Origin: Bryobacteraceae bacterium
Lineage (GTDB): Bacteria > Acidobacteriota > Terriglobia > Bryobacterales > Bryobacteraceae
DNA length: 56,884 nt
Assembly (NCBI GenBank): GCA_019748195.1
Contig: JAIEPW010000091.1
Coordinates: 1-56,884 of the forward strand
Reading direction: 5' to 3'
Part shown: in pieces, positions 18,190-26,074 of the stretch
Position numbering within the stretch: position 1 is the stretch's first letter
Layout of the letters: each line of letters starts with the position of its first letter
Notes under the pieces: model-generated
What the model saw: only the letters and a program-made list of their open reading frames with translations
Told to the model about the DNA's origin: nothing
The model's database searches: none
Position numbers and translations under genes: made by a program

Positions 18190-19941
18190 TTATTCCCACT
18201 CGATGGTCGCGGGCGGCTTATTGGTCAGATCGTATAGGACCGCGGCGATCCCCTCCTGCGCCAGCAGTTCCCGCGCGATCGACGCGAGTAACGCGTGGTC
18301 CATCCACACGGAGCGGGCGGTCATGCCGTCGACGCTCTCGATGGGGCGCAGGACTACGCTGTCGGGATGGGTCTCCGTGCCGAGGGGGAGGAGCACCACC
18401 GGGAACTGCCACACGGTCGCGTCGAACCCGGCTTCGTGCGACAATCGCCGAACGGTCGCGTCCGCGAGGCGGAGCCGCCGTAGCCGATTCGCGGAGAGGA
18501 ACGCGCGCTGTACTCGCAAGAAACGTAGCGGTTCCCGTGAAGCGGCCACCGACGCGACGCGATTCACGTGCGCCACCCGGTTCACCAGGTCGGCGGCAAC
18601 TTCGGGGGAAGCCGGGAACTCCTCCAGCGCCAGCACGGGGCGATACGTGCGGGAATCGCCCTGCACGCCCACGGAACGAACCGGGACCACCCAGCCTTCG
18701 GGGCATTGCAGCGGTGAACCTTCGCTGTCCGAGCACAGGCAGCGGATCGCGAGACCGGGGCCGGGAAAGGGGTGCCGCTGGAGCAGGTCGGCCGGAATCC
18801 CCAGCCGCGCGCCGATCTCGCGAACCTCGTCCTTGTAGAACTGCGTCAGGGGCTCGATGATCCGGTTAGCATCGATCAGCTTCTGGATGCCCTCCACCCG
18901 GTTGTGGTGTGTCTTGATCTTGTCCGCTTTCTTGGTGCCGCCGGATTCGATGGTGTCGGGGTAGATGGTGCCTTGACCCAGGATCCAGTGGCCGTCCAGG
19001 AAGTGCTCCGTTTCCAGGATGCGCTCCTGCACTTCCACGAACTTCGCGCCGATCACCATCCGCTTTTCTTCCGGATCGGTGATGCCGGTGAGGGCGGAGA
19101 GAAACCGCGATTCGGCGTTGACCACTTCGAAGCGCCGGGCGCCCAGCTTGCCGAACATGTCGCGGACGAAGTCCGTCTCGCCCTCCCGCATGAAGCCGGT
19201 GTCGACATACGTTCCGTGCACGCGGTCCGGACCCAGCGCGCGCAGGCAGAGCGTGAAGGCCACCGTGGAATCGACGCCGCCCGAGACGAAGAAGAACACG
19301 TTGCGTCCGGCCACAGCGTCCCGGATCTGCTGCTCGATGGCGTCGATGCGCCCGGCGGGATCCCAGTCCTGCTTGCATCCTGCGATGCCGAAGACGAAAT
19401 TGGCAAGCACCTGCTTGCCCGGATGCGTGTGCACCACCTCGGGATGAAACTGGACGGCGTACAGCTTGCGCGCCGGATCGCTCATGGAGGCGATCGCGCA
19501 CGTTTCCGTGCGCCCGGTCACCGTGAATCCGGAGGGCGGCGCGGAGACGGTATCGCGATGGCTCATCCAGACCTGCTGTCTTCCCGTGACGCCGTCGAGC
19601 AGCGGGTCCGCGGAGAGGACTTCGAGGTGAGCCAGGCCGTACTCGCCTTTCTCGCCCTTCTCCACCGCGCCATCCAGATTGTGGGCGATCAGTTGCTGAC
19701 CGTAACAGATTCCGAGCACCGGCTGCCGGCTCGTCAGCAGCGCCGGATCAATTCTAGGGCTCTCGGGCTCGTAGACGCTCGAGGGCCCGCCGGAGATGAT
19801 GACGCCGCGGGCCTCGCGCAGATCGCCGGCCGGAGTCTCACTGGCGAGTACCTCCGCGGTGACGCCGAGCTCGCGCACCTTGCGCGCAATCAGATGGCAA
19901 TACTGGCCGCCAGCGTCGAGGACAACAATTTGGGGGTGCAA
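18190..19941 (-). CDS. guaA: GMP synthase (glutamine-hydrolysing), long eukaryote-like form
   Basis: This 583-residue enzyme makes GMP from XMP, glutamine and ATP. The N-terminal class I glutaminase has Cys79 in VLGICYGQQ and His166/Glu168 in AVQFHPEVV. The ATP-pyrophosphatase domain has the P-loop SGGVDS at 220-225, and the end is KPPATIEWE. The start is inferred as TTG 19939-19941, because no ATG or GTG in frame lies just before the conserved HPQIVVLDAGGQ. The C-terminal domain is about 60 residues longer than in E. coli: HPFPGPGLAIR, then VPVRSVGVQGDSRTY, an insert with VNRVASVAASRE, and VVLLPLGTETHPDS, an arrangement like the human enzyme. Confidence 0.95.
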   Translation of the reverse strand: MHPQIVVLDAGGQYCHLIARKVRELGVTAEVLASETPAGDLREARGVIISGGPSSVYEPESPRIDPALLTSRQPVLGICYGQQLIAHNLDGAVEKGEKGEYGLAHLEVLSADPLLDGVTGRQQVWMSHRDTVSAPPSGFTVTGRTETCAIASMSDPARKLYAVQFHPEVVHTHPGKQVLANFVFGIAGCKQDWDPAGRIDAIEQQIRDAVAGRNVFFFVSGGVDSTVAFTLCLRALGPDRVHGTYVDTGFMREGETDFVRDMFGKLGARRFEVVNAESRFLSALTGITDPEEKRMVIGAKFVEVQERILETEHFLDGHWILGQGTIYPDTIESGGTKKADKIKTHHNRVEGIQKLIDANRIIEPLTQFYKDEVREIGARLGIPADLLQRHPFPGPGLAIRCLCSDSEGSPLQCPEGWVVPVRSVGVQGDSRTYRPVLALEEFPASPEVAADLVNRVAHVNRVASVAASREPLRFLRVQRAFLSANRLRRLRLADATVRRLSHEAGFDATVWQFPVVLLPLGTETHPDSVVLRPIESVDGMTARSVWMDHALLASIARELLAQEGIAAVLYDLTNKPPATIEWE

Positions 19942-20047
19942 GTTCCATTGTACGACGCGAGGTCCGCTTCGCCATGCCACGCGGTGCCGGAAAATCGAAC
20001 GCGGACCCGCGGCGGGGCGTATTCCTTGAGTGCAACGGCGCAACAGC

Positions 20048-20440
20048 ATGCCGCGGTTTCTCCACGTGCTAACGGCGGTTCACGCGATCGGGGCTTGCGC
20101 CTGCTTCGTGATGGCCGCGGGGAGCGCGGGGTCTCCGGCTTTCCGAGAGGCGCTTGCCGTGTCCGGCGGCAGCCGGATCATGCTCACCTGGTTCGGCGCC
20201 TGGACCTGGGTATTTCTTGTGTTTGTCGGGACGGTCCTCGCCGTGCTGGCTTACTCTTCCTGGCGCGTTCGCCCCTGGGCGTGGTTGATGACCCTGATTG
20301 TTTACGGCGTCGGGGTCGTCGGGGGATTGTGGCAGGTGAGCGTCGGAATTCCTCAGGGGTGGGCGGCGGCCGCGGTGAACGCGGCGGTGTTCGCATACGC
20401 GAGCTCGCCGGCGGTGCGGCGGGCCTACACGGGCCGATAG
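20048..20440 (+). CDS. Small four-helix membrane protein
   Basis: This is a 130-residue integral membrane protein with four hydrophobic segments (roughly residues 5-25, 45-70, 78-98 and 103-122). I chose the ATG at 20048 as the start because the longer frame from 20030 adds only charged residues. It is divergent from guaA with 106 bp between them and lies 22 bp before the selenoprotein gene, so the two may be co-transcribed. No family is recognised. The first helix contains two cysteines (GACACF). Confidence 0.65.
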   Translation: MPRFLHVLTAVHAIGACACFVMAAGSAGSPAFREALAVSGGSRIMLTWFGAWTWVFLVFVGTVLAVLAYSSWRVRPWAWLMTLIVYGVGVVGGLWQVSVGIPQGWAAAAVNAAVFAYASSPAVRRAYTGR

Positions 20441-20462: not shown

Positions 20463-21341
20463 ATGCAACTCATGGTCGATTCGTACCGTTTCCTGGACGG
20501 CATCTCGAAGAAAGTGATCCGCCACTGGTGTGGTTTGGAAGCGGCCCGGTCGCGACCGTGGACCCCGCTTGCGAAGCGGCTGCCGGACTGCACCGTGGCT
20601 CTGGTCAGTTCCGCGGCGTTGGCTTTGCGGAGCGACTCTCCGTTTCAAACGGAAATCGAGCAGCTCGATCCCTGGTTTTCCGACCCTTCTTATCGCATCC
20701 TTCCGAGCGATGCCCGGACCGCGGATACCGGCATCCACCACCTGCACATCAATACGGAGTATGCCGCGCGGGACCTCGATTGTGTGATGCCGCTTGCACG
20801 ATTGGCCGAAATGGCCTCGGCGAAGGAGATCGGCGGCTCCGCGTCTTCGCATTACTCCTATAGCGGATACACGCTTCGGCCCCAGCGGTTGTTGAAGGAG
20901 TCGGCGCCGTCGATGGTTGAGCAGATGCGGCGGGAAGGCGTGGACGTAGTGGTGCTTGTGCCGGTGTGACCCGTCTGTTGCTGGTCCGTGGGACTGGTGC
21001 AATGCGAGCTCGAAGCCGCCGGGTTCACCACGATCTCGCTCTCCATGATTCCGGAACTCACCGCGAGCACCGGGGCGCCCCGTATCGCCGGAGTGGAGCG
21101 GCCGTTCGGAATGCCGCTCGGGCTACCGGGCGACGCCGCGGGCCAGCGAGCGGTTCTTCGGGGGGCCGTACAGGCCATCGGCTCGATTCCAAAGCCCGGC
21201 GGCGTGGTGGACCTCGGTCTGGACTGGCCGGACGACCTGAGGGTGAACACGAGCCCGCCCAAACCACCGCCGATTGTCAGTTACCTGAAGCGGCATCCCT
21301 GGGCGCTGGCGCAGTTCTACAGTCGAACACCGCCTCACTGA
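20463..21341 (+). CDS. GrdB-like selenoprotein (glycine/betaine/sarcosine/D-proline reductase selenoprotein B family), UGA read as Sec
   Basis: The frame holds 292 residues if TGA 20967-20969 (residue 169) is read as selenocysteine. Before it come GrdB-like motifs: MVDSYRFLDG, WTPLAKRL, VALVSSAALAL, DPSYRILP, HLHINTEYAARDLD and GVDVVVLVPV. After it the frame continues with U-P-V-C-C-W-SVGLVQCELEAAG, then PRIAGVERPFGMPLGLPGD, and ends at TGA 21339-21341. Family members have PVU-PLC at this place, so U169 and C172 form a UxxC redox pair. A SECIS-like hairpin follows the TGA. No grdA, grdC or prd genes are nearby, so this is a stand-alone homologue, probably a redox protein rather than part of glycine reductase. 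ATG 20472 is an alternative start. Confidence 0.85.
20967..21002 (+). promoter_or_regulatory. In-frame TGA (Sec) codon with bacterial SECIS-like hairpin
   Basis: After the TGA, GGTCC (20983-20987) pairs with GGACT (20991-20995, one G-U pair) around a GTG loop. After a small internal bulge, TTGC (20978-20981) pairs with GCAA (20999-21002). The loop G is 18 bases after the TGA, within the spacing reported for bacterial SECIS elements. The 5' arm GTTGCTGGTCC (20977-20987) also resembles the E. coli fdhF SECIS arm. The structure was drawn by hand and not energy-minimised. Confidence 0.6.
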
Positions 21342-23614: not shown

Positions 23615-25990
23615 CTACTGGATCGCCATCGTGGTTCCGGGCTGCGAGTTTACACCGCCGATGTTCACCGTGAGCGGCACGGCCAGCCCGCGCGGAATAT
23701 CATCCGGCAGCCGGACGTTGATCTGGTACAGTCCGGCGGTGTAGGTGGGGGCCGCGCCCGCGTACTCCGGCGTCAGCGTGCGCCCGCCGATGGTTACGGT
23801 CAGGTTGCGGACGAAGCGCAGGCCCGTCGCCACGGAACCGGTGGTGAGCGGCGGGTCGGTCTGGCCGCCGCCGGTCATGTAAATCGAGATCACGGAGCCG
23901 GGCGCCGCGGGAATGGTGAACGCGGCGGGCGCCCCGTTGAACGATCCGTTCTGGTTGACGATCGCCGCCTGTCCCGAGCCTGAGGAGTTGGCGGTGAACA
24001 GGCCGGGCGATGCCGCGGCCACGGCGTTGTCGGTGGGGCTCGACGGCCGACCCTGATACTCCACGACGATACGAGTCACGGTCCTGCCGGCGAGCTCGAA
24101 CGGCGCCACGACGTTGATCTGTTCCGCCTGGGCATAAAGAGGGGTTCCCGGAATGCCGTCGAACAATACACGGACGCCGGAGAGCAGGGGATCGATGCCG
24201 CCCTGTCCGTTCAGCGCAAAGGTCACGCCCTGCGCGGGCCCGAGTTGGCGGCCCTTGATGGTCACAATGTTGCCGGGGCTGATGGGGCCGGCCTGGAAGC
24301 TGCCGCCGTTGGTAATGCTGGTGATCAGCGGCGGTCCGGCAGGCGCGGCGGTGACGTTGAGGGTGACGGGGACGCTGCGCGGATTGGGCAAGACGGACGA
24401 TCCCACGGTGACGAAGCCGTTGTAGCGGCCCGGCGCGAGCCCATCCGCGAGCACGGAAACGGTCGCGGTCAGCGGGGTGTCCCCGAACGCGGGCTGCGCC
24501 CGCAGCCACTGGCCGCCCTGCAGGGTGAAGGTGGACAGCGTCACGCGAGCCGTGCCGGTGCTGGTGACCAGCAATGACTGCCCCGCGGGCGCGGGGCCGC
24601 CGGACTGCACGTTGAACGTCATGGCCAGCGGGCTGATCGTGATCACCGGCGCCGGCGCTTCGGTTACGGTCATGGTCACCGGGATCTGCAGCGGCGGCAG
24701 GCCGGTTACCGCCACCTGAATCGTGCCGTCATACACGCCGGGCGTCAGATTCCGGCCGTCCACCGATACGGTAAGCTCGCGCGGGAGCGTTCCGCTGACT
24801 GGGGCGACGGTGAGCCACGGCCCGCCGCTGGCCGTGGTTGCCGTGGCGGCAAAGTTGATGGCGCCGGTGGAGTGCGTCACCGTAACCAGGCGCGTCGCGG
24901 GCAGCATGCCGTTGCGGATCTGCTCAAAGCTCAAGGATGTGGGAGTCGCCGACAGCGTCGACTGCGGGCTTATCACCAGCATCACCGGGATGGTCACCGG
25001 CGCCTGCAGCGGCGCGATGATGTTGATGGTTCCGAAGTAGGCGCCCTGCTGCAATCCGGTCGTATTGGCGCTGGCGGTGACGCTGGAAGGTGTCGTGCCG
25101 CCGTTGGAGCTGAGCTGCAGCCAGCCGCCGCCCGTCGCGGTGGCGGCGCTGATGTTGTAGGCGATCGTGCTCGCCGGCGAGGTGCTGGCGATGTTGATGG
25201 GAATCGACACACCGCCGCTGGTCCCGGGGGCGGCGTTCAATTGGATGGCCAGCGGAGCCACGGTGAGTTGCGCCTGGCTGGTGACGGAAACGATTACCGG
25301 AATGGTCAGGGATCCCCCGCCGGAGTTCACCGTGACGGCGCCCACGCAGGTTCCGGCCAACAGGGACGCGGGATTGATGGACACGGTTATCGATCCCGGC
25401 GTGCTACCCGCCGGCGCGCTGACCTGCAGCCAGTTGGATCCGCAGTTCAGCGTATTCGCCGCGGCCGTATAGGCGAGGGCCGCGCCGGTGGAACCGATGG
25501 CGATGTTGACCGGCGGCGGAGCCGGCTGCGAGAGCTGGTGGCGGAAGTGGACGAACGAGGGCGACGCGGTCAGCCGCGCGGTTTCGCCTACGATCAAGGT
25601 CACCGGCAGGCTGACGGACGGATTGCTGACATCGGCGGCGGTGATGCGGATGGTCGCTTCGTAGGTTCCGGCGCTCAGCCCGGCGGGGTTCACGCGAGCG
25701 AACACCGTGCGCGGGGTCGCTCCGCTGCCCGGATCCACCAGGAGCCAGGAGGGCGCGGTGGACGGATTCAACGGGTTCACCGCCTGGGCGGAGAAGCCGA
25801 GGCTGGCGCCCGAGGAAACCACGGCGATCGCCTGCGGGCCCGGAGGGATGTCGCCGGGGCGATGGTAGAACGTCAGGGGCGCGGACGGGAGCACCTGCAA
25901 TGTGTTCGACTGCGCCCCGGCTGTGTCCAGGCAACCCATCGCCGCCAGACCAGCCAGCGCCACGCGGGCGGCAAAGTTACAGAACTGCAT
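23615..25990 (-). CDS. Secreted multi-domain protein with Ig-like (BACON-type) repeats and C-terminal TIGR03437 domain
   Basis: This is a 791-residue protein starting at the ATG 25988-25990, six bases after GGAGG; two in-frame upstream starts are less well placed. It has a signal peptide (to about residue 28) and then six repeats of about 85-90 residues. Each has a WLxV or WLQL core, a GxTP turn, LxxGxYxGTIxI and VPVxLxV, the pattern of BACON-like beta-sandwich modules. The last ~220 residues (ITNGGSFQAGPISPGNIVTI ... YQINVRLPDDIPRG) are the TIGR03437 domain typical of Solibacter-type bacteria. The protein is probably a surface or secreted adhesion or carbohydrate-binding protein; no catalytic domain is seen. 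Confidence 0.9.
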   Translation of the reverse strand: MQFCNFAARVALAGLAAMGCLDTAGAQSNTLQVLPSAPLTFYHRPGDIPPGPQAIAVVSSGASLGFSAQAVNPLNPSTAPSWLLVDPGSGATPRTVFARVNPAGLSAGTYEATIRITAADVSNPSVSLPVTLIVGETARLTASPSFVHFRHQLSQPAPPPVNIAIGSTGAALAYTAAANTLNCGSNWLQVSAPAGSTPGSITVSINPASLLAGTCVGAVTVNSGGGSLTIPVIVSVTSQAQLTVAPLAIQLNAAPGTSGGVSIPINIASTSPASTIAYNISAATATGGGWLQLSSNGGTTPSSVTASANTTGLQQGAYFGTINIIAPLQAPVTIPVMLVISPQSTLSATPTSLSFEQIRNGMLPATRLVTVTHSTGAINFAATATTASGGPWLTVAPVSGTLPRELTVSVDGRNLTPGVYDGTIQVAVTGLPPLQIPVTMTVTEAPAPVITISPLAMTFNVQSGGPAPAGQSLLVTSTGTARVTLSTFTLQGGQWLRAQPAFGDTPLTATVSVLADGLAPGRYNGFVTVGSSVLPNPRSVPVTLNVTAAPAGPPLITSITNGGSFQAGPISPGNIVTIKGRQLGPAQGVTFALNGQGGIDPLLSGVRVLFDGIPGTPLYAQAEQINVVAPFELAGRTVTRIVVEYQGRPSSPTDNAVAAASPGLFTANSSGSGQAAIVNQNGSFNGAPAAFTIPAAPGSVISIYMTGGGQTDPPLTTGSVATGLRFVRNLTVTIGGRTLTPEYAGAAPTYTAGLYQINVRLPDDIPRGLAVPLTVNIGGVNSQPGTTMAIQ

Positions 25991-26048
25991 CGCAAACCTC
26001 CGGGGCCGGGACAGCTTCATGCGTTTCAAGTTGCAATCCCGGAGCCAC

Positions 26049-26074
26049 AAAACAATTCTAGACGGAATTGTTTT
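26049..26074. promoter_or_regulatory. AT-rich perfect inverted repeat in a divergent promoter region
   Basis: AAAACAATTC (26049-26058) and GAATTGTTTT (26065-26074) are exact inverted copies around TAGACG. The site lies in the 120-bp spacer between the secreted TIGR03437 protein (minus) and the ABC ATPase-clpC unit (plus). It is markedly AT-rich in a GC-rich genome. It could be an operator controlling one or both sides or, since it ends in T4, a weak terminator. CtsR-type operators are tandem repeats, so this is not an obvious CtsR site. Confidence 0.5.

Follow-up and report, generated by a model that had tools for sequence, protein, structure and literature searches.

The reading frame at nucleotides 20463–21341 raises the question whether an internal TGA ends a short gene or is decoded as selenocysteine (Sec), and what kind of protein would be made in the latter case. 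The window, i.e. the whole stretch of 56,884 nucleotides that was analysed, belongs to a Bryobacteraceae genome of 5.83 Mb (99.67% complete). Translation of the + strand gave 292 codons and a stop, with a sole internal TGA at codon 169; the site reads VVLVPV-U-PVCCWSVGLVQCELEAAG (wider reading VVLVPV-U-PVCCWSVGLVQ), with PFGMPLGLPGD further on. Judged from sequence comparisons, the evidence points, with a probability of about 0.93, to a genuine PrdB-like selenoprotein without a PrdA partner.

Table 1. Coordinates of the features at the locus within the window
Feature	Position	Strand	Details and basis
136-aa ORF upstream, apparently encoding a small membrane protein (judged by eye)	20030..20440	+	22 nt before the selenoprotein CDS
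Putative PrdB-like selenoprotein CDS, 292 aa with Sec169	20463..21341	+	terminal stop TGA 21339–21341; translation, TIGR04483 121.7 bits
In-frame TGA, probably read as selenocysteine (residue 169)	20967..20969	+	homologue conservation and Sec machinery in the genome
Codons of Cys172 (C of U-x-x-C) and Cys173	20976..20981	+	translation; homologue columns
Predicted SECIS-type hairpin	20980..20998	+	stem 20980–20987 with 20991–20998, loop GUG 20988–20990; folds, family position, covariation

The original prediction was of one frame running through the TGA with GrdB-like sequence on both sides, which a standard gene caller would report as two truncated genes. Such a split was obtained in a mechanical ORF list (20463–20969, 168 aa, and 20988–21341, 117 aa), and the continuous frame and the common family of both halves were borne out, the best family being PrdB instead of GrdB. 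Since the downstream frame was left open in 6% of mononucleotide shuffles, the open frame alone is weak evidence; the continuation is regarded as more than chance because the PrdB model TIGR04483 is hit by each half alone (70.6 and 35.4 bits) and by the joined protein (121.7 bits), and because G+C by codon position carries on across the TGA. ATG 20463 was favoured over ATG 20472 as start codon, since in an alignment over query residues 1–291 the M of the homologue from genome G390 falls on the query's first M.

The joined protein does not reach the equivalog cut-off of TIGR04483 (300 bits); among the controls a true clostridial PrdB scored 310.2 bits, the G390 homologue 142.8 bits and ten family members 68.8 to 183.9 bits. 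The Pfam profile GRDB (PF07355) gave 18.3 bits, below its cut-off of 22, and TIGR01917 (GrdB) 26.1 bits against a cut-off of 602.2; a PF07355 profile search of the window's genome carries no weight, having matched nothing in the controls either. As PrdB is the best family match and GRDB stays below cut-off, the protein was classed as PrdB-like, the term GrdB-like being right at superfamily level only. With the true PrdB of Peptoclostridium acidaminophilum it shares 32% identity over 223 residues, with the Sec aligned on U169 and UxxC in both, whereas the active site is UPxCC in the window protein and UGTC in the clostridial enzyme. The window protein differs further by a score far below the cut-off that true PrdB passes, by extra N- and C-terminal parts common to the homologues from G390 and G263, and by a PrdA-type partner not having been found. 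Similarity to protein B of glycine, sarcosine and betaine reductase (GrdB/GrdF/GrdH; PF07355, TIGR01917, TIGR01918) is distant (25–32 bits to NCBIfam models): all cut-offs are missed, the N-terminal half of GrdB is lacking, and neither the GrdE/PrdA family nor GrdA was found in the window's genome.

In a quick tree of 106 rows, in which two long branches were flagged, the window protein was placed with G390 (SH-aLRT 94), then G263 (96) and G324 (97). UPxCC, and with it Cys173, is common to these four. The three relatives all keep the TGA at the same codon and reach into the window protein's C-terminal tail, while most other matches end near residues 240–260; G390 and G263 also align from its N-terminus. 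To explain the active-site residues of all tree rows, 7 or more changes are needed.

Homologues were searched in 297 genomes of the same phylum and matched in 81 of them, at 97 places; 216 genomes were without a match, so that the gene appears dispensable. In the same class, 39 of 299 genomes gave a match. The alignment took in 81 of the 97 places, the remaining 16 being not fetched or not used. Residue 169 corresponds there to U in 52 rows, C in 12, S in 12, E in 3 and D in 2; Cys172 corresponds to C in 70, S in 10 and U in 1. The joined product thus aligns across residue 169 with homologues that carry U or C, as had been anticipated; the stricter expectation of Sec or Cys at exactly this site is matched by those 64 rows, but Ser, Glu and Asp also occur. 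The search table also contains a few additional in-frame TGAs, located near the C-terminus and away from the Sec site.

A second scan, of named genomes, was run with a tight alignment of 11 Sec-form sequences. The best 80 of 105 relatives, which are kin of the query subgroup from outside the window's subclade and were chosen in a way that favours Sec-form likeness, all have UxxC, one TGA each and no other stop; by origin they comprise 41 Acidobacteriota records, 34 from Poribacteria and 5 others. Homologues ending at this stop had been named as evidence against Sec; instead, the TGA is read through in 52 of the 81 aligned rows and in 80 of the 80 named-genome relatives kept. When genome contigs were scanned with the single window protein, no relative was found, and a search for phage homologues gave none. 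Plasmid matches came from 22 records (Terrisporobacter, Enterococcus, Ligilactobacillus, Peptoclostridium, Acetoanaerobium, Paraclostridium), where annotated mostly as PrdB.

The nearest homologue, in G390, is 55% identical over residues 3–291, with its TGA at the same codon. Decay of the downstream half, which would speak for a relic, was not seen: at the amino-acid level, the identity of 0.55 ahead of the TGA compares with 0.56 behind it. By codon position (1/2/3), the identities are 0.62/0.79/0.42 in the first part and 0.69/0.79/0.45 in the second, third positions being the least conserved in both halves.

The Sec machinery, whose absence would count against the Sec reading, is present in the same genome: selA (484.9 bits), selB (361.3 bits), a tRNA-Sec (72.8 bits, anticodon TCA) and selD (369 bits), which has its own in-frame TGA in KAAGUASK. 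Across the phylum, a strong selA match, with passing status read from E-values, was found in 47 of the 49 genomes with an aligned TGA form, the two others being G104 (91% complete) and G226 (77% complete). The selA cut-off was passed by 191 of 297 phylum genomes and by 144 of the 248 without an aligned TGA form (Fisher p 2.5e-8 for co-occurrence, a value that overstates independence because the genomes are related). As a side observation, selB and tRNA-Sec of genome G000 (contigs C92 and C146) stand ~2 kb apart on C146, and selA is located on a different contig.

Recoding of UGA in bacteria involves a hairpin that closely follows this codon and has a G in its apical loop. The hairpin predicted in the window has 8 bp, all eight pairs being standard, with a spacer of 10 nt after the UGA and the loop GUG 18 nt after it; stem and loop are identical in G390. 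In predicted folds, an apical loop 16–37 nt after the UGA with G within the first two loop positions was obtained for 118 of 123 Sec forms vs 9 of 29 non-Sec forms. Covariation was tested on 70 of 118 UxxC sequences with 500 shuffles: 92.3% of cells pair vs 77.4% in the shuffles, and the covariation score is 0.464 vs 0.192, neither value being reached by any of the 500. When the stem was slid along the alignment, paired cells dropped to 19–48%. Pairs changed on both sides number 6; taken alone, this figure is unremarkable, as 154 of the 500 shuffles attain it. Against synonymous codon shuffles, the 122 Sec forms have a mean fold-energy z of -1.31 after the UGA and the 29 non-Sec forms one of -0.66; Sec-form means at six offsets elsewhere range from +0.03 to -0.38. 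The window's own hairpin region is ordinary in fold energy, with z +0.25 in synonymous shuffles and values between -0.34 and +0.26 in dinucleotide ones (-0.14 for a 45-nt piece). A search of the window against Rfam gave no family.

Partner proteins were searched by profile. PF09338 (GrdE/PrdA) was not found in any of 25 genomes, i.e. the window's and 24 others with the TGA form. Because 14 control genomes were also without it, two clostridial records were searched as positive controls, and both gave matches, including beside prdB. GrdA was not found in the four genomes searched (the window's, G263, G390 and G324), while both clostridial control records match. These results agree with the claim that glycine reductase partners are absent; the stand-alone status holds as far as tested, and a role outside amino-acid fermentation is likely. 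A PrdC-like match in the window's genome (160 bits vs a cut-off of 490, without a TGA), which eight control genomes have too, was taken by us as an RnfC-type relative.

For the gene neighbourhood, counts were made with a home-made gene caller, and the target was masked when clustering; before masking, the top neighbour cluster had been an opposite-strand ORF over the target, which was taken as an artefact. The ORF directly upstream in the window belongs to no Pfam or NCBIfam family and had no relative at tblastn E 1e-3 among the other family loci compared; its co-transcription with the selenoprotein gene is possible. The window's four nearest genes likewise gave no tblastn match in the other family loci compared, and no neighbour gene common to the window and its nearest relatives was found: window and G263 have no shared neighbour cluster, and in G390 and G324 little of the surroundings is visible, the contigs being shorter than 5 kb. 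In Poribacteria, a same-strand gene of a Gfo/Idh/MocA-type cluster (two members Pfam-checked) stands directly upstream of the Sec-form PrdB-like gene in 28 of 34 loci (among L157–L212), vs 14 of 255 other neighbouring genes, and such a gene is next downstream in 18 of the 34. This neighbour is the best contextual hint to function, and it does not extend to the window's subclade. Elsewhere in the window, a GMP synthase ORF of 619 aa (18190–20049, - strand) has ~100 residues (roughly 440–538) between its matched parts and ~40 extra N-terminal ones, and in an 811-aa ORF (23615–26050, - strand) Pfam recognises, at E 0.001, one BACON domain and nothing else.

The predicted structure (mean pLDDT 78.3, pTM 0.83) places U169 between strand 162–166 and helix 172–185 of a Rossmann-like domain. 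In fold searches, nothing matched at E 0.001 with Foldseek and every Z stayed below 8, matches in the PDB being weak and generic; a profile search of solved structures listed a designed protein and otherwise just weak hits. In glycine and sarcosine reduction, a Schiff base polarises the C–N bond for selenocysteine attack, according to the available part of one account (PMC10838667), and D-proline reductase is described as analogous to that scheme in the available part of a review (PMC13188914). Another GrdB-like Sec protein is FarB, the fluoroacetate reductase of Synergistota, compared here by its description in the accessible text (PMC10838667), with a proposed substrate without an amine; FarB keeps a GrdE-type partner (FarE) and is itself predicted to feed GrdA and GrdC, whereas PF09338 and GrdA were not found here.

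On this basis, a working scheme can be proposed for the window protein. UGA 20967–20969 would be decoded by SelB and Sec-tRNA(Sec), aided by the hairpin, and Sec169 would thereby be placed in a U-x-x-C motif with Cys172, a step for which the sequence evidence is strong. The protein would operate without a pyruvoyl subunit (PrdA/GrdE) and without GrdA, presumably as a selenol-thiol reductase. The selenolate of Sec169, in the strand–helix loop of the Rossmann-like domain, would attack a small substrate at a carbon activated by the carbonyl of the substrate itself, with release of a leaving group; Cys172 (perhaps Cys173) would then resolve the adduct as a selenenylsulfide, which a thioredoxin-type donor might re-reduce. 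Since no pyruvoyl partner is available, the substrate must supply its own activation, which favours cleavage beside an existing carbonyl. Given a genuine PrdB-like selenoprotein without PrdA, C–X cleavage chemistry has about even odds, and another thiol or peroxide redox role is somewhat less probable. The most specific form of the proposal is offered tentatively, with the odds clearly against so detailed a statement: a large PrdA-independent PrdB branch, Sec-dependent in most of the members compared and common in Acidobacteriota and Poribacteria, may, in a reaction not yet described, reductively cleave a carbon–heteroatom bond beside the substrate's own carbonyl, e.g. in an oxidised sugar, with the UPxCC subclade as a specialised form with a second resolving Cys.

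The main rival, by which the selenoprotein does not reduce C–X bonds but serves as a general oxidoreductase of the thiol-disulfide or peroxide type, has a chance of roughly one in three in our estimate. UxxC is the classic selenol-thiol pair, and the available text of the Sargasso Sea survey groups PrdB with redox UXXC selenoproteins (PMC1088965); AhpC/TSA-type genes (one member Pfam-checked) occur at 12 of 161 family loci, G263 included, 7 of 16 such genes being adjacent. The model, however, is a Rossmann-like domain whose listed structural matches, though all weak, are not thioredoxins, and the characterised relatives act on C–N bonds, with a GrdB-like operon proposed for C–F cleavage in the accessible part of the FarB report (PMC10838667). 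Replacement of Sec by Ser, Glu or Asp in some lineages also fits poorly to disulfide exchange.

Far less room is left for a working subunit of D-proline reductase whose partner escaped recognition, a reading that we regard as very improbable. PrdB being the best family match and the aligned Sec within 32% identity over 223 residues speak for it, yet 121.7 bits stand against a cut-off of 300 and the 310.2 bits of true PrdB, PF09338 matches beside prdB in clostridia and in 0 of 25 genomes here, and PrdC appears only as the 160-bit match below 490. That the TGA is a true stop, of a truncated gene or of a pseudogene with a leftover 3' half, is scarcely credible: the ordinary hairpin energy of the window and the 6% of open shuffles would be compatible with it, but the TGA is kept at this codon over very diverged homologues with an equally conserved 3' half, the Sec machinery is complete, and covariation is seen downstream of the UGA. 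Equally remote is near-cognate readthrough or reassignment of UGA to another residue, or a 168-aa product functional when selenium is short. Other members of the family do accept Cys, Ser, Glu or Asp in this position, but the gene's own terminal codon is a TGA, which speaks against a general reassignment of UGA, and a product ending at the internal TGA would lack two conserved elements, Cys172 and most of the PP-R motif.

A PrdB-like selenoprotein as such is of a kind already known, since PrdB UxxC selenoproteins have appeared in ocean metagenome surveys since 2005. In the accessible portions of these sources, the Sargasso Sea survey (2005) counts 42 'Proline reductase PrdB' UxxC selenoproteins (PMC1088965) and the Global Ocean survey (2008) 235 PrdB selenoproteins and 110 Cys homologues (PMC2398784); these marine proteins share the family name and UxxC with the window protein and are likened to it by description alone. 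As far as the respective texts were available, a 'proline reductase' selenoprotein is given for Anaeromyxobacter and a Geobacter (PMC1794560), PrdB is named in reviews of 2022 and 2026 (PMC9312934, PMC13188914), and it serves as an outgroup in PMC9751293. In the open-licence literature, no paper was found that treats PrdB selenoproteins together with Acidobacteria, and the available parts of the survey and review accounts cited gave no discussion of the lack of PrdA, the UPxCC subclade or the breadth in Acidobacteriota. The interesting part is the prevalence of PrdB-like Sec proteins without PrdA in Acidobacteriota: it implies selenocysteine use in this phylum in a probable redox enzyme without amino-acid-fermentation partners, and it raises the question of the role of a PrdB without its pyruvoyl subunit. 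As genes of this family are split in two unless UGA is decoded, automated annotation can miss or shorten an enzyme that is widespread.

Several lineages of the family vary at the active site. The homologue at L081:6460–7131 (G219), on a long tree branch, has two in-frame TGAs in UPIUHQSV, the second at the Cys172 position, and may be a UxxU selenoprotein. One lineage, with 12 aligned rows of a single family, f21 (L108, L109, L111, L113–L117, L119, L121, L122, L125), retains Cys172 but has Ser in place of Sec (PASRLCHQ / PASKLCHQ); a DUF4149-type membrane gene is located upstream in 11 of these loci and adjacent in 10, and the carriers G204 and G227 have weak selA-like matches only. Homologues with Glu, Asp or Cys in the Sec column and Ser in the Cys172 column (GEVLSHQ, GDCLSHQ, GCELSHQ and alike; L055, L057–L059, L061, L065, L080, L085, L086, L127) have a cation-efflux-like gene, judged by eye, upstream in 8 loci. 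A further subgroup (L095, L098, L099, L101, L104, L123) is marked by VCLCPV-U-PNC and carries ~170 extra C-terminal residues.
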